Shown here: piece after piece, positions 5,859 through 22,971 of the stretch
Numbering within the stretch: the first letter of the stretch is position 1
Layout of the letters: each line of letters starts with the position of its first letter
Source: Magnetococcales bacterium
GTDB taxonomy: Bacteria > Pseudomonadota > Magnetococcia > Magnetococcales > JADFZT01
DNA length: 64,000 nucleotides
Direction: 5' to 3'
Assembly: GCA_015232395.1 (NCBI GenBank)
Contig: JADFZT010000006.1
Span: 25,819 to 89,818, forward strand
The notes under the pieces: model-generated
What the model was told of the DNA's origin: nothing
The model's database searches: none
Seen by the model: the letters and a program-made list of their open reading frames with translations, nothing else
Program-made: the position numbers and the translations under genes

Positions 5859-7301
5859 TTAACGAATGGCCGAAGAGGAAGAGAGCGGCTGCACTTGGCG
5901 AAATTGGGATCCAGAGGATTTAAGCAGGGCAGCCACTCGATCCGCCACTTCAGAGCCTTGGGAGATGCAGGCTCGAACCGAGACGCCGTGGAGATAGTTG
6001 CCGGTGAGAAAAATACCAGGGAGGGATTTCAGGGATTCGTCGATCCCTTTGAGGAAGAGTTGGTGGCCGATGTCATAACGGGGAAGAGCGCGATCATGGC
6101 GGATCACCTGGGCAAGTGTAGGTTCCCCTTTGAGTCCGACCAGACGTTTGAGATCCTGCTGGCTGCGAGCAAGCAATTCTTCATCGGATCGATCCAACAC
6201 CCCCGGATCCCGCGCGCCACCCATATAGTTCATAAAGAGCGCCTGCCCCTGGGGAGCCCGATGCGCAAAGAGGGTGGCAGGCCACAAGGATCCCACCACC
6301 TTGAACTCAGACTCCCGTTTCGGAATCAAGCAGCCGATGCCATCCAGGTCGTGGTCAATATTTTCCCGGGGGAAACCCAGATAGGTAACCGCCATGGGGG
6401 AGTAGGCCCGGCCAGAAAGAAGCAGGTGCAGGGAGCTGGAAAGGGATTGCAGCAAGCGTCCGGCATCCCCGGCAGGCGTCGCCACCACCACCGCATCCCC
6501 GTCAACGGTTTTGGACACCCCATCCTGAACATAAGAGACCGTCCAGCGGGTTCCCTGCCGCTCCACCCCGGCCACCCCACAACCGCTCTGAAATCCCTCG
6601 CCCAACTGTTGAGCCACCCGACCCGGCAGCGCAGCCATCCCCTCCTTGAAGGAAAAAACCCGCGCCTGGCAGGAAGAGGTCCGAATCCCCTTCACCTTGC
6701 GTACCATGGCCCCTTTCAGGATGGAGCCAAACTCATCCTCCAGTGCGCCAAACTGGATGAAGGTGGAACGCAAACAGGCCTGCTCCCCATCTCCAGCCAG
6801 AGTACCCGAAACATAAGGCTCAATCGCCCGCTCATACACCTCCCGACCAAATCGGCGGCTGATAAACTGCGCCACCGTCTCCCCTTCCCCACCCCCCCGG
6901 GGAATGAAAGGCTCCATCAGCAGGCGGAGCTTGGCTTTGAAGGAGAGCAGATTGGTGGTGAGAAATCCAGCCGGGGTAACCGGCACAGAGGTGGGCTTGC
7001 CATCCTTCACCAGATAGCGGCGCTTGGCGGCCTCCTGGCGAAAAACCATCTCGGAGGAGAGACCCAGGGTTTGGCAGAAAAAATCGACTTCAGGGAGAAA
7101 ATTGAACACGCAGGTGGCCGCATGTTCCAGGAGAAACCCGGACTCTCTACGGCTTTGGATGAGCCCACCCGGACGGTGTGCCCGCTCCAGGACCACAACA
7201 TCGATCCCTTTTTGCTTGAGCCAGAAGGCGGTGGTTAACCCGGACACCCCGCCGCCAATCACAATAACGCGATTGGCGTGCAGGGTGGTGGGGGTAATCA
7301 C
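5859..7301 (-). CDS. hemG: Protoporphyrinogen oxidase, HemY type
   Basis: 480 residues, a FAD-dependent amine-oxidase fold. The dinucleotide motif VIGGGVSGLTTAFWLKQKG sits at about 13-31, followed by the second FAD-binding phrase HRPGGLIQS and a C-terminal FAD motif GIFLTGNYLHGVSV. It oxidises protoporphyrinogen IX to protoporphyrin IX, the penultimate step of haem synthesis. It begins at a GTG (7301) with AAGGA 8 bases upstream and lies 60 bases after the last gene of a five-cytochrome cluster on the same strand. That arrangement suggests haem supply is co-expressed with the cytochromes. HemY-type enzymes are oxygen-dependent or use other acceptors; the acceptor here is unknown. Gene name is sometimes hemY. 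Confidence 0.85.
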   Translation of the reverse strand: MITPTTLHANRVIVIGGGVSGLTTAFWLKQKGIDVVVLERAHRPGGLIQSRRESGFLLEHAATCVFNFLPEVDFFCQTLGLSSEMVFRQEAAKRRYLVKDGKPTSVPVTPAGFLTTNLLSFKAKLRLLMEPFIPRGGGEGETVAQFISRRFGREVYERAIEPYVSGTLAGDGEQACLRSTFIQFGALEDEFGSILKGAMVRKVKGIRTSSCQARVFSFKEGMAALPGRVAQQLGEGFQSGCGVAGVERQGTRWTVSYVQDGVSKTVDGDAVVVATPAGDAGRLLQSLSSSLHLLLSGRAYSPMAVTYLGFPRENIDHDLDGIGCLIPKRESEFKVVGSLWPATLFAHRAPQGQALFMNYMGGARDPGVLDRSDEELLARSQQDLKRLVGLKGEPTLAQVIRHDRALPRYDIGHQLFLKGIDESLKSLPGIFLTGNYLHGVSVRACISQGSEVADRVAALLKSSGSQFRQVQPLSSSSAIR

Positions 7302-7360
7302 GGATAGATTCCTTGATCAGGAAACGTTTTGAGAAAAACAGGGCCGACTAAACGACAACA

Positions 7361-8893
7361 TCAACCCTCAGACTTTTTGGACTGGGCACTCTTGAGCCAC
7401 CACAACTCACCGGCACCAATCAACAGTGCCACCAGCAGAGCGACTATCAGAGGCTTGGAGCCCGATTTGGGTACCAGCAGCATCCAATACCAGGTGGACA
7501 AGGTGTGCTTGGAAGCGGTTTCGCTGTTGGATCCATCCCAGGCGGAAAAGGCGATGGGAATAAAGCGGCCCTTTTCGATCTGGAGATCGTTGGCATCGTC
7601 GGTCATCAGAGGCCGGGTCATCAGCACCCGCCAGGTACCATTGCTGTAGCTCCCCTTGGCGGTCAGGCCCACACCAGCGGCATCCCGGGGTTCCATATTA
7701 CCGAACCCGGTGGCGTTGGCATATTGGACGGTTTCATGCGCCTCGGTGGTGCCACTCTTCCACATCCACAGGTTGACCGGGTTGCTGGGATCCCCCATGC
7801 CGAAGTAGGGCTTTTCCATCCCTTCCGGAATGGTAATCGGCAGCTGGACCGCGATGGCATCCTCAAAGAGTTCCTCATCGGCGATGGAGATAGCGGTCTC
7901 ATCACCGGGTATGGATTTGGTACGGTCGTCCCACTCAAGGAGCATCGCCAGGTTTTCATCGTCAAACATCGCCCGCACCGAAACGGAATCGTTGCTGTGG
8001 GTAAAAAACCGCTCTTTGGCGATAATCTGGGGCAGCATGAAGAAGGTGTTGGGCTCGATGGCATCCCACCTGGGATCGTTGGTCTCGGTGGGAAGCTCAC
8101 CCTCCACTCTGTTGACCTGAATCACGGTCTTATCAGCATTGGGCGCATGCCCGGTTGCTGTCAGGGAAGAGGCATAGTTGGCAACATGCCAGATCTCTTC
8201 GCTGGAAAGCTTTTTCTTACTGGCCGGATCGGCAAACGACGGCATCTGCGTGCCAGGAATACCGGTCACCACCCGGGTATAGATATCCTTGGGATCGGTG
8301 GATCCCCGGAAGGTCCAGGGCTTGGTGAGATTCCGGGGCCAGGTGCGCTCGCCGTTATCCCCTTTCAGCTTTTTGATGGCGTCCCCTTTGCCCTTCGTGC
8401 CATGACACTCGGCGCACAGATCAATAAAGATCTCCTTGCCCTTGGCGAGACTCTCGGGGGAGGATTGTACCTGCTTGCCGTAATCCACCTGGGTTTCCGG
8501 GGTCTCTTCTTCATACCCGGCAAAGGTTTTGATATAGGCCGTCAGATCCCACATATCCTGCTCGGAGACGATGTCGGACCAGCCGGGCATGTGGGTGCCG
8601 GGCATGCCGTCCTTGATCATCCGATAGATATCTTCATCGTTGGGGACCATGTCGTCGAGACCGGTGGTCTTGATCTTATACATGCCACCGGTAAAATCCC
8701 TGGGCGGCGGGTTCATTCTTTCCGCGCCGGGTCCATATCCATCCCCCTCTTCGCCGTGACACCATACACAGCGTTTGGCATAAACTTCAGCCCCGTTGTC
8801 GGCATTACCCGGTTTGGCGTTGGCCGGGCTGGCGATAAAGGCCCCGACAAAGACGGCCAGCAGTGTCCGTTTAATCATGTGCCTGGTCCCCAT
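7361..8893 (-). CDS. Di-haem cytochrome c with C-terminal ethylbenzene-dehydrogenase-type haem domain
   Basis: About 510 residues. After a Sec signal (MIKRTLLAVFVGAFIASP) come two class I cytochrome c domains with CVWCHG and CAECHG. A region of about 200 residues follows that resembles the EB_dh family, a b-haem-binding fold of dehydrogenase gamma subunits, with VNLWMWKSG, GTWRVLMTRPL and IAFSAWDGSN. It ends in one membrane helix near the C-terminus. The start could be the ATG at 8893 or at 8878; the first follows the upstream stop by one base. It is the last cytochrome of a tightly packed leftward cluster and probably shuttles periplasmic electrons for the bd-like protein. Confidence 0.8.
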   Translation of the reverse strand: MGTRHMIKRTLLAVFVGAFIASPANAKPGNADNGAEVYAKRCVWCHGEEGDGYGPGAERMNPPPRDFTGGMYKIKTTGLDDMVPNDEDIYRMIKDGMPGTHMPGWSDIVSEQDMWDLTAYIKTFAGYEEETPETQVDYGKQVQSSPESLAKGKEIFIDLCAECHGTKGKGDAIKKLKGDNGERTWPRNLTKPWTFRGSTDPKDIYTRVVTGIPGTQMPSFADPASKKKLSSEEIWHVANYASSLTATGHAPNADKTVIQVNRVEGELPTETNDPRWDAIEPNTFFMLPQIIAKERFFTHSNDSVSVRAMFDDENLAMLLEWDDRTKSIPGDETAISIADEELFEDAIAVQLPITIPEGMEKPYFGMGDPSNPVNLWMWKSGTTEAHETVQYANATGFGNMEPRDAAGVGLTAKGSYSNGTWRVLMTRPLMTDDANDLQIEKGRFIPIAFSAWDGSNSETASKHTLSTWYWMLLVPKSGSKPLIVALLVALLIGAGELWWLKSAQSKKSEG

Positions 8894-8894
8894 C

Positions 8895-9662
8895 TTATTC
8901 GTGACCCCAAGATCTGGGCTGTTGTCCGGTGTAGTCATACAGGAACAAAATCACCTTCCAAATTTCATCCTCGGTCAGGAAGTCCTGCCAGATCGGCATG
9001 GATGAAATCCAGGGAGCGGCCTCCTTGGGCAAGCCCGGGCCACCAGTGGCGATCCGCCAGAAAAGAAACGACTCCTGGAGCTGGGCGATGGTGCCCACAT
9101 CCTGGAAGTTGAGCGGAACGGGATTGAGCGCAGGGGCATAAGGCCCTTTACCATCCAGCTTGTCTCCGTGGCAAAACTGGCAGTTTTGGATGTAGACCGC
9201 ACCGCCTTCGTAGACCAGCTCCTTGAATTTTTCCGGATCCTCCTTTTCAAACTTGCGATAAGGATTTTCCAGAGTGGCCAGGTTGTAGCGCTTGCCATAG
9301 GCCTTGACGGCGCTGGGAGGAGCCGGATGGATGGAACGCAGCTCCACCGGAGCCTCAAAGCTGGGCAACATTTTGCCGTAAGCGTAGTAACCGGCGGCCA
9401 GTGGTACCAGCAGGAAGACGATGTAGCGCATCACCTTCTTGGAGGGATCCTCCACCAGGGCCACGATGGGGGCGACCAGTTCCCGGGTCCCCTCCTCGGT
9501 GAAGGTGTAGACAGTGAACACCCCGGCCACCACGAAAAACATATACATGGTGAGCAGACTTGCGGGGATCAGCTGGCCCAGTAGGACATCGAACACCAGG
9601 ATAAAGCCGTAATAAATGCCGACAGTGACCAGTACGGCTTCCAGTAGCTTGGGTATCTTCAT
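8895..9662 (-). CDS. Membrane-bound mono-haem cytochrome c
   Basis: 255 residues. Three hydrophobic segments lie in the first 115 residues (near 8-30, 38-55, 78-95). A periplasmic cytochrome c domain follows, with CQFCHG near residue 160 and a distal methionine candidate in SSMPIWQDFL. The gene lies 21 bases downstream of a di-haem cytochrome gene, and its stop is immediately followed by the next cytochrome gene, so it belongs to one operon. The N-terminal membrane part with a C-terminal c domain suits an anchored electron carrier within a larger membrane complex. The exact family name is not recognised. Confidence 0.8.
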   Translation of the reverse strand: MKIPKLLEAVLVTVGIYYGFILVFDVLLGQLIPASLLTMYMFFVVAGVFTVYTFTEEGTRELVAPIVALVEDPSKKVMRYIVFLLVPLAAGYYAYGKMLPSFEAPVELRSIHPAPPSAVKAYGKRYNLATLENPYRKFEKEDPEKFKELVYEGGAVYIQNCQFCHGDKLDGKGPYAPALNPVPLNFQDVGTIAQLQESFLFWRIATGGPGLPKEAAPWISSMPIWQDFLTEDEIWKVILFLYDYTGQQPRSWGHE

Positions 9663-9683
9663 TGTATCGGTGCCTTCCCTTAC

Positions 9684-10496
9684 CTATTTCAGACCGGCCA
9701 GGTAATCCACGAGCAGATCCAACTCCACGGCGTAGAGCTGCTCACCGTAATCCGGGGGCATCATGTCAGCCTCAAACCCTTCGGCCACATCGGCGTTGGG
9801 ATCCATGATCGCCCGCCGGAGGTAAGCCTTGTCCACCTTGCCTCCAATTGCCCTGAGATCCGGACCCATGTCCCCTTCCCCATCAGCCACCAAGTGACAC
9901 ATGCCACACTGGAGCCCTTCGAGCACCTCTTCGGCACTGGTCCACACTTCACGGGTTTCGGCCTCTTCTTCCTCTTCTTCCTCGTCGGCGCTCATGTCGG
10001 GAATCTCAACGGTCACTTCCATGCCGTTGGAGTCCTGCATATAGGCGATCGTCGCGAGAATTTCAGGTTCGGAAAGGCCGATGGAGCCCCCGGAAACGTC
10101 GGGCATGGGGCTGACGGTATCGTTGGTACCCGCTTTGCCGAATCCCGCCACCACGTAGGCGGAAGGATCGACCAGGGATTCCATCAGATAGCCCTCTGCG
10201 TCGGAAGCTTCTCCGGCATAGCGGCTATCCGCCAGCCGCTCTCCGACAGCACTCCCCAATTTTTCCAACATGGGTGCGCGGCCCAACTCGTTATGGCAAA
10301 GCTTACAGGTACCCTTGCCGTTGACAGTTCGCTCACCCAGAGCAATAAAGCCGTCCATATCCATGGCCGTGAGGTCGATCTTTTCCTCTACCGGCGGGGG
10401 GGCCGGCGTGATCTGGGGAATTCCAAAATTGGAATACCCCCCAAACATACCGATGACGAACAGGCTGAAGGCCGCTACTTGCAGGAATATTTTCAT
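9684..10496 (-). CDS. Di-haem cytochrome c with acidic linker
   Basis: 270 residues. An N-terminal signal or anchor helix (MKIFLQVAAFSLFVIGMFGG) precedes two cytochrome c domains with CKLCHN near residue 62 and CGMCHL near residue 197. A run of glutamates (about 170-180) separates the domains. The start at 10496 has AGGGA close upstream and lies only 7 bases from the stop of the bd-like gene. The two domains are of similar size and may have arisen by duplication. It is predicted to be periplasmic and to exchange electrons with the bd-like membrane protein. No substrate-binding domain is visible. Confidence 0.8.
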   Translation of the reverse strand: MKIFLQVAAFSLFVIGMFGGYSNFGIPQITPAPPPVEEKIDLTAMDMDGFIALGERTVNGKGTCKLCHNELGRAPMLEKLGSAVGERLADSRYAGEASDAEGYLMESLVDPSAYVVAGFGKAGTNDTVSPMPDVSGGSIGLSEPEILATIAYMQDSNGMEVTVEIPDMSADEEEEEEEAETREVWTSAEEVLEGLQCGMCHLVADGEGDMGPDLRAIGGKVDKAYLRRAIMDPNADVAEGFEADMMPPDYGEQLYAVELDLLVDYLAGLK

Positions 10497-10502
10497 GGTT
10501 CC

Positions 10503-12902
10503 CTAGGTCCTCCAGTAACCGGTGACGGGGGTCTTCCTGCCACTGACCGTAGCCAGCCAGAAGACAAAAATGACCATGGCCATAAAGATGATAGTGCCCA
10601 CCGAAACCACGTTGGCGGCATATCCCAGGGTCGGCGTGAATGCGTCCGGCGAGTTATCCCGCATGATGTCCACCACATGCCAGTGCTGACGGATACCGGA
10701 GCGGATATACCCCATGAGACCCATGAGCCAGGTGAAGGAGACCGCGAGCAGGAAGAGGGCATATTGACTTCGTCCCGATACCCGACCCCATTTCAGCGGT
10801 GCCACCTCCTTGGCGCCTTTATACATGAAGCTGTCGATCACCCCGCTGGCCACCAGCACCACGAGGGTGGTCAGCACCTGGGGAATGGAGGCCGCCACCT
10901 TATAGACCGTGTTGGTGAAGTAGCCGTAGTAGATGCCCAGGATCAGAATATTGATGATACCGGCGGTAAAGAGGGCAAACTGGGCGGCATTACCCGCCTT
11001 GACCCATGACACCACCGGCGTCTTGTTGGCTCGGCGATAGACCAGGAACGACAGTGCTGTGAAGAGAATCATGATGTTCACAGCGGTGTTTTTGGCAGGC
11101 ATGATGCCCAGCGGCCCCAGATATTTATGGTAGGGTCCACCCAAAGCCTGTAGTTCCTGATTGGTCAGCACCAATGTGTGCGGCGTAAACCAGACCAGGA
11201 AGGCCCCGACAATCACGGCAGCGAAATACTTGATATACTTGTTGTATCTCACCGCCCCATCGCTTCGTCCCATGCCACACCAGAGATAATAGTTGGCCGA
11301 GAGAAACAGCGTGCCGATCAACACCGCCTGGATGATGAAGAGCCAAGCAAAGACGCCACCCATCAGGGTGATACCCATCTGTTGGCTGTAGGCGTAGATT
11401 TCAGCCGTCAGATAGTAGCCCGCGAAGGGGAGCGGCAGCAGCGCGCTGATAGCGATAAAGTTGGCGGTATAGCCCATCCAGTCATAATGCGCCTTCTCCT
11501 CTTTGGTGCGGGAGGAGAGAAACTTGAAGGCGGCATAAGCCCCCACCACCGATCCACCGTAGGCCACATTGGCCACCACCCGGTGAAGGTTGATGGGATT
11601 CCAGAGGAAGTTGTGCATCGCAGCCCAGGTATCCCCGGAAAAGGTCCCGGAAGCATCCACCCCGGCCGGACTCATCATGAAGGTGAGCCAGGAGTTGGCG
11701 AGCAGCATCAGGACGGTACCGACGGCGTTCAGGAGCAGGCCCAGGGTGAGATGCACCCATTTTTTAAAGCCGCCCTGGAGCCATTTCCAGCCATAGTAGT
11801 AGATGTAAAGACAAGCGCTCTCAGCGAAAAAGAGCAGCGCATAGTAGAACATCGACTCCTTGAAGATGGTGGTCAGGTAGAGCATCAAATCGGGATAAAA
11901 GACCAGAAGGGAGAGGGTCAGAAAACCACCCAGAATCGCTGTCAGGGAGTAGGCTGTGATGGAGACCTTGATAAACTCATAGGCCATGTTGTCATAGCGC
12001 TGATCCCGGGTCTTCATGCCGATGGCTTCGATGATGAAGACAAAGATGGGCACGGCCAGAACAAAAGCGGCAAACCAGAGATGAAGCTGGGCCACCAGCC
12101 ACACCACGACCCGGCCATTGACCCCGGCGATCTGGGGATAATCCTTGGCGGTGAGTTTGGGTGCCGGGCCGTAAAGGGGCTCTTCTTCCACCAGCTCCTC
12201 AGCAGCCTCTTCAGCCGGAGCAGCCTCTTCAGCGACAGCCTCCTCAGACTCAGCGGCCTCTTCCACATCGGCATCCGCTGCCACCTCTTCAGCTGAAGTA
12301 TCCGGCTCAGCGTCGGCGACTTCCGCCACGGCCGCGATCACCTCTGGCGCCTCTTCAGCCACAGGAGCCGCATCAGCTGCCGTCTCGGCGGCCTCAACAG
12401 CCGCTTCCACCGTAGCGGAGATCTCAGAAGCAGCCTCTTCGACAGCCGTTACCGCCGTTTCCTGTACGGTTTCGACCGCCGCAACAGGCTCGGCCACCAA
12501 CGCAGCGGGCGCCTCAATCACACCCGCCACCTCGGGAACCGCCGGTATGGCCACCGGGGCATCCGGGAGAGCTGCTTCGACAGCTTCGGTCACCGCAGTA
12601 GCCGGAGCTGATTCGACAGCGTCCTTGGCGGCAGCCAGGGGATCAGCCATCACCGGCATGGCCAAAATTTCAGCCGGTAGACCCGGATCCTCAGCCACGG
12701 CTGTGGCTGATGTATCAGCGGTTGCCAGGGGATCGGCCATCACCGGCATGGCCAAAATTTCAGCCGGTAGACCCGGATCCTCACCGGAGTCCGCCCGGGC
12801 CAGGGAACCGCCCCATGCCGTCGGACCAAAATTGATGATCATGAGGGCCAGGACCCAAACCCCGATCACCCATCCTGCTTTTGCGGAAAAACGCGGCCTC
12901 AT
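10503..12902 (-). CDS. Cytochrome bd-like multispanning membrane protein with Ala/Glu-rich extension
   Basis: 799 residues. The start at 12902 is supported by AGGAG just upstream. Residues 1-38 form a signal or anchor segment. Residues about 39-243 are a low-complexity Ala/Glu/Val region. The rest has about 14 membrane helices and resembles CydA: QLHLWFAAF (His274, like E. coli H19), FFAES (Glu361, like E107), NPINLHRVVANVAYGG (His440, like H186), NIMILF (Met611, like M393) and GIRQHWH (like GRQPW). By eye, the E99 and E445 equivalents are Tyr353 and Ser. There is no quinol Q-loop and no CydB gene. From memory, Nitrospira encode similar bd-like putative oxidases beside cytochromes c. It may be fed by cytochrome c rather than quinol. 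The substrate (O2, NO or other) is unknown. Confidence 0.7.
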   Translation of the reverse strand: MRPRFSAKAGWVIGVWVLALMIINFGPTAWGGSLARADSGEDPGLPAEILAMPVMADPLATADTSATAVAEDPGLPAEILAMPVMADPLAAAKDAVESAPATAVTEAVEAALPDAPVAIPAVPEVAGVIEAPAALVAEPVAAVETVQETAVTAVEEAASEISATVEAAVEAAETAADAAPVAEEAPEVIAAVAEVADAEPDTSAEEVAADADVEEAAESEEAVAEEAAPAEEAAEELVEEEPLYGPAPKLTAKDYPQIAGVNGRVVVWLVAQLHLWFAAFVLAVPIFVFIIEAIGMKTRDQRYDNMAYEFIKVSITAYSLTAILGGFLTLSLLVFYPDLMLYLTTIFKESMFYYALLFFAESACLYIYYYGWKWLQGGFKKWVHLTLGLLLNAVGTVLMLLANSWLTFMMSPAGVDASGTFSGDTWAAMHNFLWNPINLHRVVANVAYGGSVVGAYAAFKFLSSRTKEEKAHYDWMGYTANFIAISALLPLPFAGYYLTAEIYAYSQQMGITLMGGVFAWLFIIQAVLIGTLFLSANYYLWCGMGRSDGAVRYNKYIKYFAAVIVGAFLVWFTPHTLVLTNQELQALGGPYHKYLGPLGIMPAKNTAVNIMILFTALSFLVYRRANKTPVVSWVKAGNAAQFALFTAGIINILILGIYYGYFTNTVYKVAASIPQVLTTLVVLVASGVIDSFMYKGAKEVAPLKWGRVSGRSQYALFLLAVSFTWLMGLMGYIRSGIRQHWHVVDIMRDNSPDAFTPTLGYAANVVSVGTIIFMAMVIFVFWLATVSGRKTPVTGYWRT
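12634..12783 (-). repeat. Direct 60-bp repeat inside the bd-like gene
   Basis: Two copies (12634-12693 and 12724-12783) differ by one base and are offset by 90 bases. They encode EDPGLPAEILAMPVMADPLA twice, with a 30-residue period, just after the signal segment. Near-identity at DNA level indicates a recent in-frame duplication. Confidence 0.9.
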
Positions 12903-12935
12903 TGTCGCTCCTATCAAGCCCATCCGAGGGGTCCT

Positions 12936-13073
12936 TTATTGGTGAAAGAACAGGGAGATGCCCTGAAGATTCATCATGAGCAGGTCCAAAAGAAAAAAGG
13001 CGACGCCAAAAACACCCAGCCCCGCACCATAGGGAATAAGAAATTCCTTGTACCGTTCAATAATCGCTTTCAC
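12936..13073 (-). CDS. Small single-helix membrane protein, 45 residues
   Basis: GTG start at 13073 with GGGAG upstream; the product is (V/M)KAIIERYKEFLIPYGAG followed by a helix of about 20 hydrophobic residues (GVFGVAFFLLDLLMM) and a short tail ending FFHQ. It lies 34 bases before the bd-like gene and 19 bases after another tiny membrane gene on the same strand. Short helices of this kind are typical accessory subunits of terminal oxidases (CydX and CcoQ are precedents), so I infer a structural subunit of the bd-like complex. No recognised family. Confidence 0.55.
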   Translation of the reverse strand: MKAIIERYKEFLIPYGAGLGVFGVAFFLLDLLMMNLQGISLFFHQ

Positions 13074-13091
13074 GGCCCGACTCTCCCACAC

Positions 13092-13196
13092 TCAAAGGAA
13101 CCAGATAAAAAACAGGATCACCCCAATCAGGACCGTGGTGAAAAGAGCCGGTCCGGCCAAGGGGTATTTGTCAATTCCCGTAGGTTGGTCACTCAT
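13092..13196 (-). CDS. Small single-helix membrane protein, 34 residues
   Basis: ATG at 13196 with GGAG 7 bases upstream. The product opens MSDQPTGIDKYPLAGPALFT and then has one hydrophobic helix, VLIGVILFFIWFL, up to the stop. Codon use and the clear ribosome-binding site support translation despite its size. It sits between a cytochrome c gene and the 45-residue membrane gene in the leftward cytochrome operon. I infer a small subunit of the bd-like/cytochrome complex by analogy with CydX or CcoQ-type peptides; there is no sequence family match. Confidence 0.55.
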   Translation of the reverse strand: MSDQPTGIDKYPLAGPALFTTVLIGVILFFIWFL

Positions 13197-13297
13197 TTGT
13201 CTCTCCCCCTCCCCACTTGAGGGGAGGTCAGGCCACACCACCATGGGGGGTGATGCGGCCCATTCACGAAAATGCCAAGGTTACGGCTGGATCAGCC

Positions 13298-15129: not shown

Positions 15130-16890
15130 ATGCAAGGAAAACTCAAGAAAACGTTGATGCTGGCAGGCGTCTCCTCGGCATTCCTGCTTGGCGGAATGTT
15201 GCCGGGAGAGGGTGTTGCCAAACCCAAAATCCCGGCGTGGATGCACGGATCCGAGGTTCCCACCGAGCTGCCCACAGTCGACACGCAGTTGATGTACAAC
15301 GCGGGTGGTTTGGATGGTAAGGTCGCCATCCTCGGTATTCCCAGTATGCGGACCTACCGCCACATCGATATCGGCGTGGATCTGCATGAGCCGGTGTTCA
15401 GCGGTACCAACGCCGGTAACAAGAACGGTACCTCTGACGGCAAATATCTTTACGTCAATGACAAGGGTGCCAACACCATTGGTGTCGTCAACCTGCAAAC
15501 CGGCTTCCTGGAGCGCCTCATCTCCATGCCGGTGCCTTTCGGCATCCATCACATCTCTCTGGACGACACCGGCAAGTTTCTCTACGCCACCGGTGAGCTC
15601 TCCGGTAAGATGGCCAAAGTGGAGATTTCCACCGGTAAGGTGCAAGTGATCGACTGGGGTCCTGCTCCCAGCGCCCCTGACTATCTGGATGTGGACAAGA
15701 AAGGTCGTTACGTCTTTTCCGGTAACTACTACCACTCCACCGTGGGTGTCTTTTCCACCAACCCCTTCAAGCTCATCAAGGAAATCCCCGTGGGTAAGAA
15801 TCCCCACGGTACCGACGTGATTCCCGAGAGCACCCTGGTGATTGTCAGCGACAAGCTGTCGGCCACCATGACCGTGATCGATGTGGAAAAGCTGGCTGTT
15901 AAAAAGGTCATCCCGACCTGTGCTGGTCCTCTGCACTCGGTGATGGATGTCTATGATGCCAATGGCGGCACCTACGAGCCTGGCAAGGACAGCCCCGAAG
16001 GTCTCACCTCCAAGTATGCCTACGAGAGCTGCTTCGTCTCTGACTCCAACGTCAAGATCGACCTGAAAAAGCTGGAAGTGGTGGATGAAATTCCCACTCA
16101 CTACCGCACCGGTCACATCGCGATTGCCCAGGACAACAGCTACGTTTTTGCTCTCAACAAGTTTTCCACCGGTCTCTTCAGCCCCACCGGCGTGATCTTC
16201 CCCGTGAACTTTGAGATGTGGGATGCCCGTGAGGATAGCCCGACCTACGGTAAAACCATGCGCATCATCCCCGTGGATGGCGAGCCCCACAACGCCAAGG
16301 TGATCCACTCCTATCAGGTGAAGCGTTGGAACATGGGTCAAGCTGAAAAGGGTGGTCTGCTCAGTGGCGACACCCCGGCCCTCTTCCCGGCTCACCGGTC
16401 CAAGTCCAAAGTGTCGTTCCTGCCCAAATCCAAAGAGCCCCCGGGAGTCCGGATGAAGGATGGCGTCAAGGAGGTCCACATCAAGGCCTTCAGCTATGGC
16501 TACATCCCCCGTCAGGTTCGCGTGAACAAGGGTGAAAAGGTACGTATCTTCGTCACCAACATCGATCGCGCTTCCGGTATCACCAAAAACCCCGACGTGA
16601 CCATGGGCTACACCATCTATGGTCCCTACGGTCTGCGTACCAACCTGAGCGCCCCCCGTGGTGTGACGGCGGTGACCGAATTTGTGGCTGACATTGCTGG
16701 TGAATATGAAGTCTACTGCCAGCATTTCTGCGGTCCTCTCCATCTGGAAATGCGCGGTACCTTCTTTGTGGACGATCCTGAGAAAGAAGCCTCCAACCTC
16801 GCCATCGGTGACTATAAAGAAGCCCAGGAACTGCCTGGTCTGACCGAAGAAGGTGAGCTGGAGATCGCTCCGGTGGTTGAAAAGTTCTAA
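15130..16890 (+). CDS. NosZ-family (nitrous oxide reductase-like) Sec-exported copper protein with altered ligands
   Basis: 586 residues. A Sec signal without a twin-arginine motif (MQGKLKKTLMLAGVSSAF) precedes a propeller domain. That domain keeps most NosZ landmarks: LHEP (His86), IHH (140-141), NPHG (226), GPLH (269), YRTGHI (329), FALNKFSTGLFSP and EPHN (387). The C-terminal cupredoxin (about 445-550) has the CuA-type set CQHFCGPLHLEM (Cys530, Cys534, His538, Met541). Compared with known NosZ by eye, the second His of the DxHH pair is Glu87, the first CuA His is Met492 (TMGY for THGF), and the Trp between the CuA cysteines is His532. Sec export recalls clade II NosZ. It lacks nosD and nosL beside it, so N2O reduction is likely by family but unproven. 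Confidence 0.8.
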   Translation: MQGKLKKTLMLAGVSSAFLLGGMLPGEGVAKPKIPAWMHGSEVPTELPTVDTQLMYNAGGLDGKVAILGIPSMRTYRHIDIGVDLHEPVFSGTNAGNKNGTSDGKYLYVNDKGANTIGVVNLQTGFLERLISMPVPFGIHHISLDDTGKFLYATGELSGKMAKVEISTGKVQVIDWGPAPSAPDYLDVDKKGRYVFSGNYYHSTVGVFSTNPFKLIKEIPVGKNPHGTDVIPESTLVIVSDKLSATMTVIDVEKLAVKKVIPTCAGPLHSVMDVYDANGGTYEPGKDSPEGLTSKYAYESCFVSDSNVKIDLKKLEVVDEIPTHYRTGHIAIAQDNSYVFALNKFSTGLFSPTGVIFPVNFEMWDAREDSPTYGKTMRIIPVDGEPHNAKVIHSYQVKRWNMGQAEKGGLLSGDTPALFPAHRSKSKVSFLPKSKEPPGVRMKDGVKEVHIKAFSYGYIPRQVRVNKGEKVRIFVTNIDRASGITKNPDVTMGYTIYGPYGLRTNLSAPRGVTAVTEFVADIAGEYEVYCQHFCGPLHLEMRGTFFVDDPEKEASNLAIGDYKEAQELPGLTEEGELEIAPVVEKF

Positions 16891-16918
16891 ATCTGTAGAA
16901 AACCTCTTCATCGTACAC

Positions 16919-16949
16919 CTCCCCCCCTTTTTTTCGGGGGGGGAGTTTT
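16919..16949 (+). terminator. Hairpin terminator after the NosZ-like gene
   Basis: CTCCCCCCC and GGGGGGGAG arms around a T-rich loop, followed by TTTT. It lies 28 bases after the stop, so much of the transcript may end here, making the NosZ-like mRNA more abundant than the downstream genes. Confidence 0.75.
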
Positions 16950-16982
16950 CACAAACCATAAACATGCATAGGAGATCCGCTT

Positions 16983-17480
16983 ATCAACAGCCTCTTAAAT
17001 CCTGGCGGATTTTCGGTACGATCCTTTTTCGCTCTCCTGCTGCTCCTGGGTATCTTGAATGGATGTGGTGCCAAGGAGGAAGCCCCCCCTCCGCTGCCGA
17101 CTGAAACGGCGGATGTGGTGGTGAAGCGGTTTTATGAATTGATATCCGAAGCCCAGATTCGCGGCGGATCCCTCCCCATTCGGGAGGCGTTCAAGCTGAT
17201 CGATAGTGAAAGTTCCCAGATCAGCCAAGCCAAATTTGTCCAAATCGTCAAACGCTACCCTTCGGGATTTCAGATCCAGGTAGTTGATACCAAAGTGAGT
17301 GCCAAAGAGGGCAATGCGGCGGTGACGATTTCGTATAAGATGCCTTCCATGTTTGGTGACGGCTACGACGTTCAGACCGACGTATTGCTGAAAGTGGACA
17401 AGGCCAGCAACAGTTGGAAAATCGACTTTACCGGGGAAACCGATGATCAGGACCCCAACGCCATGAAACGGCAAGGTTAG
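16983..17480 (+). CDS. Lipoprotein, NTF2/DUF4878-like, with apparent ATC start
   Basis: About 165 residues. The frame contains a full lipoprotein signal: basic-polar start, FFALLLLLGI, then the lipobox LNGC. There is no in-frame ATG or GTG before it. The ribosome-binding site AGGAG (16970-16974) lies 8 bases before an ATC at 16983, so an ATC start, or a sequencing error, is likely. The TTG at 17055 would remove the signal. The mature part (about 120 residues) has TADVVVKRFYELISEAQ and a beta-rich end typical of NTF2/DUF4878-like lipoproteins. It lies between the NosZ-like gene and the cytochrome b gene; the role may be assembly or docking. Confidence 0.65.
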   Translation: MNSLLNPGGFSVRSFFALLLLLGILNGCGAKEEAPPPLPTETADVVVKRFYELISEAQIRGGSLPIREAFKLIDSESSQISQAKFVQIVKRYPSGFQIQVVDTKVSAKEGNAAVTISYKMPSMFGDGYDVQTDVLLKVDKASNSWKIDFTGETDDQDPNAMKRQG

Positions 17481-17525
17481 GATCTGGGTCGGTCAAAGCC
17501 GGAACCCGAAGGAACGAAACCACTG

Positions 17526-18164
17526 ATGTCTGGAAAATTTTCCAACTGGCTGGAGGAGAGAACCGGGTTCAGAACATGGTCCCGGCGCAAGGGGGCCCAA
17601 GCGGTTCCCAGCCATGTGGGATGGTTTCACTACTGCTTTGGCGGTTTAAGTCTTTTCATCATCGTGTTACAGGTGCTCTCCGGGATCTTCATGGTCTTTT
17701 TTTACAAGCCGGAGCCCCTGGAAGCGCTGAAGAGCATTGAATATTTGAGCAATGAAGTCACCCTGGGATGGTTTTTCAGGAATCTGCACCGGTGGGGATC
17801 CACGCTGCTGATAGCGACCATTTTTACCCATATGATCGCGGTGATTCACCAGCGGGCCTACCGCAACCCGAGGGAGCTTAACTGGGTATCGGGTCTGTTA
17901 CAGTTCATGGTGGTGTTTTTGCTCTTGGCCACTGGATTGATTTTACCCTGGGACTGGCGGGCCTACTGGTCATTTTCGATTTGGGTGGATTATTTCGCCA
18001 CCTGGCCTTTGGTCGGTGATTTTTTGAAAAATTTTCTGCTGGATACTTTTTCCATCAACCGCAGCTTCGTGCTTCACATTCTGGTGCTGCCGTTGACGCT
18101 TTTCATCCTGCTTTTTTTCCATTTTCGAATGGTCAAAAAGCATGGCATCTCGGAACCGCTGTGA
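17526..18164 (+). CDS. Cytochrome b (b6-type N-terminal half)
   Basis: 212 residues with four membrane helices. It has the haem-ligand pattern of cytochrome b/b6: NLHRWGS with THM 13 residues on in helix B, and VLHILVLPL with FHF 13 residues on in helix D. The quinol-side phrase GLILPWDWRAYWSF is also present. It would bind two b haems and oxidise quinol as the cytochrome b of a bc-type complex. The C-terminal half is encoded by the next gene, 19 bases on. No Rieske gene lies nearby, so electron bifurcation may be absent or differ. A fused paralogue of both halves lies at 29456. Confidence 0.85.
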   Translation: MSGKFSNWLEERTGFRTWSRRKGAQAVPSHVGWFHYCFGGLSLFIIVLQVLSGIFMVFFYKPEPLEALKSIEYLSNEVTLGWFFRNLHRWGSTLLIATIFTHMIAVIHQRAYRNPRELNWVSGLLQFMVVFLLLATGLILPWDWRAYWSFSIWVDYFATWPLVGDFLKNFLLDTFSINRSFVLHILVLPLTLFILLFFHFRMVKKHGISEPL

Positions 18165-18182
18165 GGGGTCTCGGGAAGATGG

Positions 18183-18869
18183 ATGGCTGACATGTCTGAA
18201 GAGCCGGATATCATACGGGATCCCAAATATGATCCCCCCTACCCCCAGGACTTTTACCGGTTCTGGCCCAAACATGTCTTCAAAACCATTTTGGTCTTGG
18301 GACTTTTGATGGGCGGGTTGGGTTATCTGACTTTTCAGTTTCAGGTACCGATGGATTCCAACATGCCACCTCTGCCGGATGAGGGAATGTGGGTTCCGGC
18401 ACCGGAGTGGTATCTCTTTACCCTGTTTCAGCCCTTTTGGTACCTCACGGGGGAGGATGTCAGCTGGCGACCTCTCTTCACTTTCTGGGTGCCGGTTGGG
18501 GTGCTGATCCTGCTTTTTGCGATGCCATTTGTGTTTGGCCGCAAGCGGGCTCCGGTGGAGGGTGTGGGGGTTGTCAAGCGGACCGGATTGGCGGTGCTTT
18601 TTCTGTTTATCTGGGGTGCGGGTATCGCTGGCGTGGTGGGGAGTGGTTATCCTGCCAAGACCACCGGCTGTCCTTCCTGCCACAACCCGATGATGGGTCA
18701 GCGGCAGGCACTGCCTCCGGCGGATATGGGCAAGTTTTATCGGGAGGCCCGGGAGCAGCAGATTCAGGTGGGACGTTACCGGATCGGCAACACCATGGGG
18801 ATGGGTGACTCCTACAAGGATGCCAACTGGCAGTTGCGGCACTTTTATGAACCCACGATGACCTGGTAG
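18183..18869 (+). CDS. Cytochrome b C-terminal half (subunit IV type) with C-terminal c haem
   Basis: 228 residues. Three membrane helices (near 30-55, 105-125, 140-160) and the subunit IV phrase VPAPEWYLFTLFQPFWY place it as the second half of cytochrome b, including the PEWY-like quinol-site motif. After a fourth helix the C-terminus has one c-haem site, CPSCHN, near residue 162, and ends in a conserved-looking tail HFYEPTMTW. The end resembles that of the fused paralogue (HWFFPQVVW). The fused c haem could take over electron delivery to soluble cytochromes in the absence of a Rieske protein and cytochrome c1. The next gene starts within 40 bases. Confidence 0.85.
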   Translation: MADMSEEPDIIRDPKYDPPYPQDFYRFWPKHVFKTILVLGLLMGGLGYLTFQFQVPMDSNMPPLPDEGMWVPAPEWYLFTLFQPFWYLTGEDVSWRPLFTFWVPVGVLILLFAMPFVFGRKRAPVEGVGVVKRTGLAVLFLFIWGAGIAGVVGSGYPAKTTGCPSCHNPMMGQRQALPPADMGKFYREAREQQIQVGRYRIGNTMGMGDSYKDANWQLRHFYEPTMTW

Positions 18870-18904
18870 TGAGTGTCATGGATGATACGGGTAGGAGATG
18901 GGGT

Positions 18905-20098
18905 ATGCGGGCCTTGATCCTCTCTTTGGGGATGCTGGTGGCGATGGTTGGCGGTGAAGTGATTGCTGTGGAATCCCAGCCAATGCAAGAGTTTCAGCTG
19001 CCTGAAGGCATGAGTGCCATACAGGATCTGGCGGTTGATACGGCATCGGGTGATGTCTGGTTTGTGGAAAAGGTGGGCAGGCAGTTGGGTCGTTTTCATT
19101 TGGCTGATCAGACTTTTGCCACCCACTCGCTTCCGGAAGCTTGGGGGGATGTTGGCTTTGCCACCATGACCCGGGGTCCGGACGGTACTCTCTGGTTTAC
19201 GGTCAATCGGGGTGTGCAGGTGGTGGAGGAGACCCACTATTTGGGGGCTTTTGATCCGACGAAGGGCGTTTTTTCCCAGCACCCTCTCCCCCCGGGAAGT
19301 GCTCCTGAAGCGTTACAGGTCGCATTGGATGGCGTGGTGTGGTTTTTGGATCCGGATGCCAACAGCGTTCGGGCCTATGATCCCCGGGATCAATCCCTCA
19401 GGGATTTTGCGATTCCCACACCTCATGCTCAACCTCGTGGGATTGCTTTGGCCCGGGATGGTTTGGTCTGGTTTAGCGAACCCAACATCAACCGCATTGG
19501 CAAGCTGGATCCCAAGAGCGGTGAAGTGACGGAATATGATATTCCCACACCGTTTGCCAATCCCGGTGCGATCACGGTGGATGGCCGGGGGTTGGTTTGG
19601 TTTGTGGAGATGACCTCCAATCGGTTGGGACTTTTTTATCCCGATCTGGAGCGGTTTGACGAAGCGGAGATTCCCACCCCTCGGGGGTTGCCGGTGGCTC
19701 TGGCTGCGGATCAGGAAAATCGGATCTGGATATCGGAACTGCGGGGCAATCAGATGACCCGGTTTGATCCGGCGGAGGCGACTTTCACTTCGGTGGCTGT
19801 ACCGACTTTCAACAGTCTGCCGGGGGAAATATCACTGGATCTGGAGCGTCAGCGGCTGTGGTTTTCGGAGAGTGCCACCGAGGCCAAAAAGCTGGGTATG
19901 TTGAATATTGGTGTCGATCAGGTACCCGGGGTAGCGGAGTTGAATGCCGCTGAGGCTGAATCCACCACTGCCCAGAAGGAGACGCTTAAGGGGACTGATT
20001 CCAAGAGCACTCTCTATTTGGGATTGATTTTGCTGGTCATTCTCGGTGCGGTGACGGCGCTGGCGCTTAAAAATCCTTGGCGCGGGGCACCCAAATGA
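18905..20098 (+). CDS. Vgb/NHL-type seven-bladed propeller protein, membrane anchored (1)
   Basis: 397 residues. I start at the ATG at 18905 because GGAG lies 8 bases upstream and a signal peptide follows (MRALILSLGMLVAMVGG). The body has repeated blades with the signature WF(S/V)E...NRIGxxDP (DGLVWFSEPNINRIGKLDP and variants), as in virginiamycin B lyase and SMP-30/NHL propellers. A C-terminal membrane helix (LGLILLVILGAVTALAL) anchors it outside the membrane. The lyase activity is unlikely to be relevant here; a scaffold or copper-site assembly role, taking the place of NosD, is speculative. The next gene overlaps its stop codon (ATGA). Confidence 0.75.
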   Translation: MRALILSLGMLVAMVGGEVIAVESQPMQEFQLPEGMSAIQDLAVDTASGDVWFVEKVGRQLGRFHLADQTFATHSLPEAWGDVGFATMTRGPDGTLWFTVNRGVQVVEETHYLGAFDPTKGVFSQHPLPPGSAPEALQVALDGVVWFLDPDANSVRAYDPRDQSLRDFAIPTPHAQPRGIALARDGLVWFSEPNINRIGKLDPKSGEVTEYDIPTPFANPGAITVDGRGLVWFVEMTSNRLGLFYPDLERFDEAEIPTPRGLPVALAADQENRIWISELRGNQMTRFDPAEATFTSVAVPTFNSLPGEISLDLERQRLWFSESATEAKKLGMLNIGVDQVPGVAELNAAEAESTTAQKETLKGTDSKSTLYLGLILLVILGAVTALALKNPWRGAPK

Positions 20099-21084
20099 GG
20101 CGAACCCTGCTGCTGGCGGTGCTCTTGTTACCGTTCATGGGATTCGAAGCCTGGGGATCGTCGGGGTTTAAAAGTTTTCCGCTCCCTGGGGCCCATGCCT
20201 TACCGGCCCGTATGGCGATTGATCCCCAAGGGGATATCTGGTTTGTGGAGTCCAATGGCAATCGGATTGGACGGTTTAAGCCGGAGGGAGAAAAATTTAC
20301 GTCATTTGAACTCCCCACCGTTCGGGCGGTACCAGCGGATATAGCGGTCGCCCCTTCGGGAAAGATTTGGTTTACAGAGCAGGATGCCAATCAGTTGGGG
20401 GTGTTGGATCCCGAAACCGGGACGATTGTGGAGTATGACATTCCGACCATTGAGAGCCTGCCCCGGCGGCTGACAGTGGATGCCAAGGGCGTCGTTTGGT
20501 TCAGCGAATTTTACGGCAACCGGATTGGTCGGTTTGACCCCCAAGAGGGGCGCATCAAGGAGTACAAACTCCCGACACCCGGGAGTCAGCCCATGGGGAT
20601 TGTGGCGCATGAAGATGGCTCGATCTGGTTTTTGGAGACCCAGGGCAACCAACTGGGTCGGTTAGACCCCGAAAGCGGCACCATTCGGGAATATCCTTTA
20701 CCAACGCCTTTCATGATTCCTCAAGATCTGGCGATTGGCTTGGGGGGGAAGTTTTGGTTCGGGGCGCGCAAGGATCAAAAGCTGGTTTCGTTTGATCCGG
20801 TGTCGGAAGTTTTTCAAACCTATGATCTACCCCATGGCGGGGTGATTGCGGGGCTTTCGGCGGGAGGTAAGGGAACCATTTTGTTTTCACTTGGATTTCC
20901 TGGAAAAATCGGCATCTTCAATCCGGTTTCTCAGGGCTTTCAGGAGTTTAAGCTCTTCCTGGGCAACAGCCGGCCCAATGATATCGAGATGGACCCCCAC
21001 GGGGACATCTGGTTTTCGGACATCGGCCAAAACGCCATTGTCAGGACGAGCGGTGCGGAAGTAACGAATCTATTGGTAAAGTAG
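20095..21084 (+). CDS. Vgb/NHL-type seven-bladed propeller protein, periplasmic (2)
   Basis: 329 residues, starting at the ATG that overlaps the upstream stop by ATGA. Signal peptide (MRRTLLLAVLLLPFMGF, cleavage near AWG-SS). Almost every 42 residues a blade motif recurs: DIWFVESNGNRIGRFKP, KIWFTEQDANQLGVLDP, VVWFSEFYGNRIGRFDP, SIWFLETQGNQLGRLDP and others. It is similar to the preceding protein but lacks the C-terminal anchor, so the two are probably tandem duplicates. Sequence family: virginiamycin B lyase-like. In this setting it more likely binds or stabilises a respiratory partner than acts on an antibiotic; that is inferred from operon context. Confidence 0.8.
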   Translation: MRRTLLLAVLLLPFMGFEAWGSSGFKSFPLPGAHALPARMAIDPQGDIWFVESNGNRIGRFKPEGEKFTSFELPTVRAVPADIAVAPSGKIWFTEQDANQLGVLDPETGTIVEYDIPTIESLPRRLTVDAKGVVWFSEFYGNRIGRFDPQEGRIKEYKLPTPGSQPMGIVAHEDGSIWFLETQGNQLGRLDPESGTIREYPLPTPFMIPQDLAIGLGGKFWFGARKDQKLVSFDPVSEVFQTYDLPHGGVIAGLSAGGKGTILFSLGFPGKIGIFNPVSQGFQEFKLFLGNSRPNDIEMDPHGDIWFSDIGQNAIVRTSGAEVTNLLVK

Positions 21085-21111
21085 TTTTATCATGCAAGGG
21101 GGACGAGAAAG

Positions 21112-22050
21112 ATGAGGCGAAAAATGAAAAAAGCATGGTATCTGGTTCCATTGGGCCTGCTGGTGGCGGTTTCGACCCCCACGGAGAGTGTGGCAGGCGA
21201 AAAGCGGTGCCGGGTGGGTAGTACACGGGTAGAGTGTCCGGTGAAGACCGACGCACAGCTCGAAAAAGCGATCGACGCCTATGAGGCGGAAGGCAATGCC
21301 ATGGCCGAAGGTAAGGCCGGAAGCACCTACGGTATCGCTCCTTTCGACTATCTGACGGGTGTGGGTAAGCATTCCGAAGGCACCACTCTGACTGAGGGTG
21401 ACAGCGGCTACGGCGCTGGCACCGGTAAGACCGAGTTGTGGGATCGGGTCAAAGCCCCCAAAAAGGGTGATGCGCTCTACAATCAGTGGACCAACAACTG
21501 GTCCCCCACCTTCAAGACCACCCTGGTTCCGGGTGCGGATCCCAACGAAGGCAAGCAGTGGTACTACGTCTATTGTGTAGGCTGCCACGGCTGGCTGCTC
21601 CAGGGTGACGGTCCCAACGCCTTTTATGTAACGCCCAGGCCCCGGGTTCTCGTCGCCGGCGACTACATGAATGGCAAGACCAACCTGGAGCTGTTCTCGG
21701 TGATCAAAGGCGGCGGTGAAGCGGTGGATCTCTCCCCCTCCATGCCTTCCTGGGGTAACCTGATGCAAGATCAGGACATCTGGAACGTGGTGGCCTGGAT
21801 TCGCGCCAACGCTGACGTGGGTCCGCCCAAGTCTCTCGAGGATTATCTCAATCCCAAATCCTCCTACAAGCCCAACCCCAACGACGTCAACCCTCTGAAC
21901 GCGGCCCAAAATGCTGACTTTGCCGACGCTCAGGAGATGGCTGAAGCGACCCTGCCCGGTCGTGGCGTTATCGAGGGTGGCGGTTATGTGGAAGGTGGCC
22001 TGCGCAAAGCTCCCTCCGAGGTGGCTGGCAAGGTCAAGGGCGGTTACTAA
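21112..22050 (+). CDS. Periplasmic mono-haem cytochrome c (312 residues)
   Basis: A signal peptide (MKKAWYLVPLGLLVAVS) is followed by about 150 residues without a haem motif, containing two extra cysteines (CRVGSTRVEC) that may form a disulfide. A class I cytochrome c domain follows with CVGCHG near residue 158 and a distal Met in SPSMPSWGNLM, then an 80-residue Pro/Asn/Gly-rich tail. It lies 27 bases after the second propeller gene and before a strong terminator, so it closes the first transcription unit of the NosZ-like operon. It is a good candidate for the direct electron donor of the NosZ-like enzyme. Confidence 0.8.
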   Translation: MRRKMKKAWYLVPLGLLVAVSTPTESVAGEKRCRVGSTRVECPVKTDAQLEKAIDAYEAEGNAMAEGKAGSTYGIAPFDYLTGVGKHSEGTTLTEGDSGYGAGTGKTELWDRVKAPKKGDALYNQWTNNWSPTFKTTLVPGADPNEGKQWYYVYCVGCHGWLLQGDGPNAFYVTPRPRVLVAGDYMNGKTNLELFSVIKGGGEAVDLSPSMPSWGNLMQDQDIWNVVAWIRANADVGPPKSLEDYLNPKSSYKPNPNDVNPLNAAQNADFADAQEMAEATLPGRGVIEGGGYVEGGLRKAPSEVAGKVKGGY

Positions 22051-22087
22051 GAAGGTTTTGACCCAACCGACCTGATTGATCTATCAA

Positions 22088-22127
22088 AGAGGGGGCACGT
22101 TCCGTGGGGCGTGCCCCCTCTTTTTTT
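22088..22127 (+). terminator. Strong rho-independent terminator
   Basis: A 12-bp perfect stem AGAGGGGGCACG / CGTGCCCCCTCT with a 10-base loop is followed by seven Ts. It ends the NosZ-like operon 38 bases after the cytochrome c stop. Confidence 0.9.
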
Positions 22128-22434
22128 GGGGAAAGCCACAGGATAAATTTTTGCTTTTCCAAAATGGATTTTGACTGGAACACCCCTTCAGGCAGGATAG
22201 ACGTTGTGAAAAAAAGCGGGCTGGGTGAATCCTTAAACATCTGCCTAATTGACTCTCCTCAATTTTTTAGTCACCTCTTTCAGGTATACCGTCAGCAGAG
22301 TGCTCTTGTGACTGTTGACCCATTTTTTTTAAAATGGGTGGTCTGTTTTTTCTCCATTCACATTGTCACCATCCCTTGGCAAAATCAGGGACATCATTCC
22401 TCTCGGACAGTTTTCCCTCTAAGGAAGGTTTTGG
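22128..22434. other. Gene-free region with promoter for the next cytochrome gene
   Basis: About 300 AT-richer bases after the terminator. The only pattern I can support is the FNR-like box at 22249. No small gene with a ribosome-binding site was found. Confidence 0.5.
22249..22262. promoter_or_regulatory. FNR/Dnr-like box
   Basis: TTGA-CTCTCC-TCAA, extended by one base to ATTGA/TCAAT. Core half-sites and spacing equal the FNR-family consensus TTGAT-N4-ATCAA except for the innermost T/A pair. It lies 173 bases before the ATG of the cytochrome gene at 22435, which suggests low-oxygen or nitric-oxide control. Confidence 0.4.
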
Positions 22435-22971
22435 ATGAAGAAGGGCTTGCTCTTCACGGTGGCGGTTTTGGCCACTCTGGTGGTTGGTCTGTTGATTGTT
22501 CCGCCGCTATTGGGGATCGATCTGATGGCTCGGGCCAAGGCCCATGGGCTGGTGGCCTATTCCACTGATGAAGCGGTGGCTCTCGCCTATGAACGCTGCA
22601 CGGGATGCCACGACTCGGAAAAAATCGTCAAATATTGTACCCGCTGCGGCCCACCCTTCATCGTCGCCAGCCACTTTATGCAAAAATATGTGGAAATCAC
22701 CAACCAGAACGGGCTCGTGGTGGAACCTTTCACCGATGCCGAGCTGGTAGCCATCGTCCAGGTGTGGAATGCCCTGGTGGGTAACTGGGAGGTGGACTGG
22801 AAAAAGCAGGATCTGGCCAAATTGATCGCAGGGAATAAAGGGCTGCTGGGGCTTTTGGAGATCCCCCTTGATCAGCGACCCATCGAATCCGCCTTGCAGG
22901 GCAAGCGGGCTCCGGGGGCTTATATTGAAGAGCAGAATCAGCCGGCTACGGCTGGGGCTGGGGCTTCATAA
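22435..22971 (+). CDS. Membrane-anchored small cytochrome c with extra CxxC
   Basis: 178 residues. AAGGAAGG precedes the ATG by 6 bases. An N-terminal helix (about 4-27) acts as signal or anchor. The c-haem site CTGCHD is near residue 57, followed 14 residues later by KYCTRCG, a second CxxC without histidine that could bind metal or form a disulfide. No classic distal Met loop follows; HFMQKY may supply it. It has its own promoter region after a terminator and may be anaerobically controlled. The likely role is electron transfer in the same respiratory system. I do not recognise a named family. Confidence 0.7.
   Translation: MKKGLLFTVAVLATLVVGLLIVPPLLGIDLMARAKAHGLVAYSTDEAVALAYERCTGCHDSEKIVKYCTRCGPPFIVASHFMQKYVEITNQNGLVVEPFTDAELVAIVQVWNALVGNWEVDWKKQDLAKLIAGNKGLLGLLEIPLDQRPIESALQGKRAPGAYIEEQNQPATAGAGAS

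Follow-up and report, generated by a model that had tools for sequence, protein, structure and literature searches.

Do two divergent operons of a Magnetococcales bacterium, one encoding a NosZ-like enzyme and the other a protein related to the cytochrome bd oxidases, form a single respiratory system, and what would the bd-like half of that system reduce? These operons lie within a 64,000-nt stretch of DNA, hereafter the window (GenBank assembly GCA_015232395.1, 4.9 Mb; contig JADFZT010000006.1, positions 25,819 to 89,818), in which we studied the locus between positions 5859 and 22971; the conserved cluster extends past 22971. Gene calls and profile searches place the minus-strand operon at 5859-14379 and the plus-strand operon at 15130-22971 (Table 1). 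The initial annotation of this locus had described two opposed operons around a control region of some 0.8 kb. All the genes that it named were found where it had put them, and on the same strands, with 750 bp between the operons; a recount also gave the same seven c-type cytochromes besides the b-c subunit (with ten CxxCH motifs among these seven), two propellers, a hemG gene and a Rieske-less b-c complex. It had read this layout as one respiratory system with two terminal reductases, or as a pair of steps such as nitric oxide (NO) and then N2O reduction.

Linkage and co-occurrence of L-NosZ and the bd-like protein

By its profile matches, the product of the first plus-strand gene is a clade III, lactonase-type N2O reductase (L-NosZ; He et al. 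Nature 2025, as cited in PMC13122619), and it is predicted to reduce N2O. Namely, it matches NF052460 at 785.8 bits (cut-off, 700) over the full length of the profile (positions 1-480 of 480), it combines the propeller and the CuA-type cupredoxin of this clade, and solved NosZ structures match its residues 212-549 of 586 (3e-24). Identity as a clade II NosZ was ruled out, with a score of 170 bits against a cut-off of 625. When compared with clade III L-NosZ as described, what is extra here is the linkage to bd-like and haem-type genes.

A scan of public genomes with an L-NosZ query (A2) returned 33 loci in 32 genomes, at 67-85% identity, whose labels are mostly Gammaproteobacteria, Gallionellales, Nitrosomonadales, Burkholderiales, Rhodospirillaceae, Deltaproteobacteria and a Mariprofundus metagenome-assembled genome (MAG). 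The bd-like profile (A3) matches 27 of these 32 genomes, G402 among them by a 69-residue fragment only. First, the bd-like gene is found within the 10-kb flank of L-NosZ in ten loci, and other genes of the bd module in three more; in several draft genomes the two modules are on separate contigs. Second, complete bd modules have a constant order, namely, di-haem c, c, bd-like, di-haem c, c and c-EB_dh, and since gene content and this order recur in several bacterial classes, the cluster goes beyond chance. Third, in a set of 20 genomes the pairwise distances of L-NosZ correlate with those of the bd-like protein (Mantel r = 0.78), which is what parallel inheritance would give, with a contribution from host phylogeny. 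The divergent arrangement itself is not kept, the modules being co-directional in several relatives (e.g. L042, L044 and L046-L048).

Among 398 sampled genomes of the window's phylum, L-NosZ was found in two, the bd-like protein in three and both in two; among 300 genomes of the order around G410, the respective numbers were two, four and two. In neither sample did L-NosZ occur without the bd-like protein, and close bd-like orthologues were found only with L-NosZ; those without detected L-NosZ (G015, G484 and G560) are divergent, at about 43-50% identity. When 47 order relatives were searched, L-NosZ was above the cut-off only in the window's genome, and 24 of them gave NosZ-like matches of about 117-148 bits with long open frames, which we interpret as clade II NosZ. 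The co-occurrence, frequent adjacency and correlated distances support the earlier reading of the operons as one respiratory system. Frequent separate occurrence, which the initial annotation had named as evidence against it, is not seen for close orthologues, the bd-like protein standing alone only in its divergent form; and of what it proposed to look for in other genomes, co-occurrence and frequent adjacency were borne out. In the literature that we searched, to which He et al. (2025) did not belong, no link of L-NosZ to a bd-like cluster or to haem-type genes was found. The pairing of L-NosZ with the bd-like protein is real, conserved and new relative to that literature.

The phylum group of the window includes a MAG labelled Mariprofundus, from which the L-NosZ contig of G262 (L065) comes. 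This Mariprofundus-labelled contig (L065/L029) carries L-NosZ, the bd-like module and cytochrome c maturation genes on one piece.

The bd-like protein and its probable haem

Like the canonical cytochrome bd quinol oxidases (CydAB, AppCB), the bd-like protein matches PF01654, over the N-terminal half of its core and of the profile only, and alignment with E. coli CydA shows that H19, H186, E107 and the RQ-W of the GRQPW motif are kept. In contrast, E99 is replaced by Tyr, E445 by Leu and the Q-loop lysine K252 by Gly, the alignment being weak in its C-terminal part. Whereas CydA has nine membrane segments, the bd-like core has about 13 by our own count (12 by a simple hydrophobicity scan), and no CydB-like gene was found in the operon, to which the search for CydB was limited. 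Orthologues of the core are 75-82% identical, and a search of plasmids did not find it. Global hhalign of the protein with CydA gave nothing, and a local profile comparison covered the N-terminal part only. Since the Q-loop lysine, E99 and E445 are lost but H19, H186 and E107 are kept, the protein probably belongs to a cytochrome c-fed reductase and not to a quinol oxidase; the five c-type cytochromes of the operon make this the simplest reading.

In its features, which is how we compared them, rather than in a tree, the complex resembles the OR-N (NIDE0901-type) and TO_1 complexes (Nitrospirota, Manganitrophaceae), which likewise have a CydA-like protein that has lost the Q-loop lysine, c-type cytochromes and a periplasmic haem b domain. 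The OR-N bd-like oxidases are likely cytochrome c-linked (PMC10839748), and TO_1, a related Nitrospirota complex, has a periplasmic cytochrome b (PMC9040806). To judge from its five c-type cytochromes and the lost lysine, the present complex would also be cytochrome c-linked without a quinol Q-loop, as is required of OR-N enzymes. It differs by its single CydA-like subunit and by its linkage to L-NosZ and to radical SAM and Usp genes. Two CydA-like subunits have been proposed for OR-N enzymes; no second one (CydA') was detected in the window's genome, where the bd-like protein is the sole PF01654 match, and a divergent member could escape such a search.

Two variations of the bd-like module were also observed. 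The N-terminal extension of the window's protein (12174-12923), rich in Ala and Glu and about 250 residues long, contains DPGLPAEILAMPVMADPLA twice and is much longer than that of relatives; and in G400 (L138) and G399 (L140) a second, divergent bd-like module, at about 45% identity and with its own c-type cytochromes, adjoins the first.

Two further genes recur in many linked loci, one for a Usp-domain protein that contains PCP_red repeats, the other for a radical SAM/SPASM protein whose PCP_red domain is of the tetrapyrrole type; in the window's genome they lie together on contig C60, away from the window. The latter protein shares its SPASM radical SAM architecture with AhbD, NirJ and NirJ2, and is nearest to the models of AhbD (haem b synthase) and NirJ2 (a haem d1 enzyme). 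It differs from these enzymes in scoring below all of their NCBIfam cut-offs, in its PCP_red domain, and in a distribution that follows the bd-like protein and includes genomes without a NirS-family match. A separate, weaker NirJ-like match is found near NirS on contig C14 of the window's genome. With a presence threshold of E <= 1e-60, and leaving the G402 fragment out of the bd-like-positive count, the radical SAM gene is present in 30 of 30 bd-like-positive genomes, including the three without detected L-NosZ (G015, G484 and G560), but in not one of the 22 order relatives that lack the bd-like protein (0/22). It is also present in G414 and G420, where the bd-like gene was not found. The presence in all bd-like genomes and in none of these controls argues that the gene tracks the bd-like protein, and this co-occurrence, the PCP_red domain and the kinship with haem enzymes together point to a tetrapyrrole step that would serve the bd-like complex. 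Probably, then, the complex carries a custom haem, in whose tailoring the AhbD/NirJ2-like radical SAM protein would act together with the Usp/PCP_red protein, and possibly also with the protoporphyrinogen oxidase (PPOX)-like enzyme of the operon.

Proposed electron path and candidate substrates

We consider it rather likely that the locus encodes a single, co-inherited denitrification unit whose two branches both face the periplasm, and whose bd-like half would be a cytochrome c-fed reductase. From the protein families we infer that, in the first branch, the Rieske-less pair of cytochrome b6 and subunit IV-c would oxidise quinol, and electrons would pass via cytochromes c to L-NosZ, converting N2O into N2. 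In the second branch, the same cytochrome c pool would supply a membrane complex in which the bd-like protein is joined by five c/b-type cytochromes. Of 34 genomes, 29 have a gene of the NirS family (PF02239), which fits a denitrification setting.

Several points weigh against such a unit. L-NosZ is found without a full bd-like gene in G401, G402 (the fragment), G414, G415, G420 and G424, and in these six genomes the gene may have been lost in assembly or be really missing. The relatives were gathered by close similarity (67-85%), so that more distant L-NosZ may lack a bd-like partner; seed genomes are contained in the background samples and cut-offs were set post hoc, which makes the overlap probabilities biased and indicative only. 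Most of the genomes compared are drafts, with possible binning errors in MAGs. PF02239 also matches NirF and NirN, so that nitrite reduction is not proven for each genome. The poor alignment of the bd-like protein's C-terminal half with CydA weakens what is said here on E445 and M393, and AlphaFold2 modelling of the core with ten close homologues reached a predicted local distance difference test (pLDDT) score of 41, and the model was not used for fold searches.

Regarding its substrate, O2 at low concentration is slightly favoured, if tentatively, because of the superfamily, over NO, which is a somewhat less probable candidate supported by the tight tie to denitrifiers; any other role has a low probability. 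The two terminal reductases of the initial annotation fit these data, the substrate of the second being predicted only, and its NO-then-N2O pair would be compatible with them.

This choice depends on the other reductases of these genomes. In the 34 genomes, haem-copper oxidase (HCO) genes were sorted by their motifs, though not exhaustively, with HxxQQ taken as the mark of eNOR-type NO reductases (NOR) according to the Gln criterion (PMC8756737). Genes of the eNOR type were found in 23 of the 34 genomes, and c/qNOR in six. In the window's genome both a cNOR and an eNOR are present, away from the window, together with two other HCO genes that score highly against COX1. A gap in NO reduction was considered for this genome and rejected, and the bd-like complex is unnecessary there for converting NO into N2O. 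Among the HCO genes examined, neither eNOR nor c/qNOR was recognised in four NirS-family-positive drafts (G399, G403, G411 and G429), which may be due to incompleteness. The eNOR-type HCO (HSSQQ) at G000:C12:20371-21714 (L100), which has like loci in many L-NosZ genomes, is preceded by a small membrane-anchored protein with the look of a cupredoxin subunit for it. Several other genomes have, 5-10 kb away from the eNOR-type HCO, a COX1-like protein (WGGGHxxQ) that lacks a HH pair.

The alternative that survives best, and which we regard as quite possible, is that the complex is an O2 reductase like OR-N and TO_1 of Nitrospirota, operating at low O2 or tolerating NO beside N2O respiration. Its EB_dh domain and c-type cytochromes parallel the cytochrome b of TO_1 (PMC9040806) and the cytochrome c use of OR-N enzymes (PMC10839748), and both the superfamily function and the lost Q-loop lysine agree with such a role. 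However, a near-exclusive tie to L-NosZ would be odd for a general oxidase, the window's genome already has the two HCO genes with high COX1 scores, and there is one CydA-like gene instead of the two proposed for OR-N enzymes.

It is less probable that the complex is an NO reductase, such that NirS would make NO, the bd-like complex N2O and L-NosZ N2. The occurrence of close bd-like orthologues only alongside L-NosZ in the sampled genomes, the 29 genomes (of 34) with NirS-family genes, four of which are the drafts without a recognised NOR, the replacement of two glutamates of the O2-reducing bd oxidases and the dedicated haem-type genes would all suit this function. Yet eNOR-type genes are present in 23 of 34 genomes, with cNOR and eNOR both in that of the window; the four drafts may be incomplete; and we know of no member of the bd superfamily that has been established as an NO reductase. 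That this would be the first one, with a radical SAM haem of its own and a compact pathway from NO through N2O to N2 together with L-NosZ, is an equally unlikely scenario.

A hub that feeds electrons to L-NosZ, without reducing any gas itself, seems improbable: proximity to L-NosZ in many loci, the five c-type cytochromes and the altered active-site residues could be so explained, but a cytochrome b6/c pair already accompanies L-NosZ, bd-like modules occur in G015, G560 and G484, where L-NosZ was not detected, and the haem-type genes suggest a catalytic haem. Lastly, the reading of two unrelated operons as neighbours by chance, which the divergent layout in the window and the separate contigs of several drafts might suggest, deserves very little credence: both modules occur together in 27 of 32 genomes, they are linked across classes and they diverge in parallel, which largely refutes it.

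Other features of the locus and meaning of the pairing

Table 1. Genes and control region of the locus, by position in the window.
Feature	Position	Strand	Evidence or context
PPOX/HemG-like flavoprotein (protoporphyrinogen oxidase family)	5859-7301	-	TIGR00562, 283.4 bits (cut-off 97.85)
Di-haem cytochrome c with EB_dh/DMSO-reductase-gamma-like (ethylbenzene-dehydrogenase-type) haem b domain	7361-8878	-	PF00034, PF09459, two CxxCH
Membrane-anchored mono-haem cytochrome c	8895-9662	-	One CxxCH; second after bd-like gene in relatives too
Di-haem cytochrome c	9684-10496	-	Two CxxCH; directly after bd-like gene, conserved
Cytochrome bd-like (CydA-related) protein	10503-12923	-	PF01654, 63.6 bits (cut-off 26.2)
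Small mono-haem cytochrome c	13298-13696	-	PF13442, one CxxCH; conserved upstream of bd-like gene
Di-haem cytochrome c, first gene of minus operon	13693-14379	-	PF00034, two CxxCH; conserved first in bd module
Divergent control region	14380-15129	.	Between both operons
L-NosZ, clade III lactonase-type N2O reductase (predicted)	15130-16890	+	NF052460, NosZ structures; propeller and CuA-type cupredoxin
NTF2-like small protein	17055-17480	+	PF05223 (weak); kept 3' of L-NosZ in marine, delta-type loci
Cytochrome b6-like subunit	17526-18164	+	PF00033, 3.8e-35
Subunit IV-like protein with one haem c	18183-18869	+	CPSCH at residue 163, hydrophobic segments
Vgb-type beta-propeller, C-terminal hydrophobic segment	18869-20098	+	PF24684; conserved in relatives' loci
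Vgb-type beta-propeller, periplasmic	20077-21084	+	PF24684; conserved in relatives' loci
Mono-haem cytochrome c, frequent L-NosZ partner	21112-22050	+	One CxxCH; 54-67% identity in relatives
Membrane-anchored cytochrome c	22435-22971	+	One CxxCH, CTGCH at residue 55; conserved in relatives
Three-gene ATP-binding cassette (ABC) system (ATPase, ABC-2 permease, GldG-like auxiliary)	23114-26405	+	Beyond the initially annotated locus

In the minus-strand operon, the EB_dh-type cytochrome has a C-terminal hydrophobic anchor and an uncertain start codon (its open reading frame opens at 8938), and its homologues, present in most linked loci, are 51-65% identical. Homologues of the PPOX/HemG-like protein, at 37-44% identity, adjoin bd-like or L-NosZ genes in many loci. 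The control region contains a perfect inverted repeat of 12 nt (14448-14459/14480-14491, with a 20-nt gap) and a second pair with 10-nt arms (14970-14979/15006-15015), read by eye.

Residues of L-NosZ were compared with those of clade II NosZ in an alignment in which only four of seven clade II rows were usable, three being mis-framed, which makes all statements on CuA and CuZ ligands provisional. H140, H226, H269, H329 and H387 fall in His columns, the N-terminal HH pair is unaligned, and H78, H86, H141, H202 and H324 are invariant candidate CuZ ligands. The CuA ligands C530, C534, H538 and M541 are present, with Met492 at the position of the CuA His583, a difference from clade II, and His532 at that of Trp620. 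On the opposite strand, a 618-aa open reading frame (15109-16965) is regarded as an artefact of base composition.

As in clade I and II nos clusters, NosZ is accompanied by cytochrome b/c donors and an ABC transporter, which here is a GldA/ABC-2/GldG-like set, all or some of whose genes are near L-NosZ in about ten loci (48-73% identity); it is proposed as a stand-in for NosDFY. NosD and NosL were not seen in the region studied, no genome-wide search having been made. There is no Rieske gene within the cluster, and the subunit IV-like protein has no Pfam match. The divergence of the mono-haem cytochrome c at 21112-22050 follows that of L-NosZ closely (Mantel r = 0.92).

Only recently have clade III N2O reductases been recognised as a sink for N2O. 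If L-NosZ is indeed paired with a bd-like complex that carries a special haem, the electron supply, oxygen behaviour or NO handling of these organisms may differ from those of clade I and II denitrifiers, and the genes described here would provide a marker set for predicting such behaviour. The bd superfamily would then gain a subfamily with a place in the nitrogen cycle, and a tetrapyrrole modification that is as yet undescribed would be indicated.

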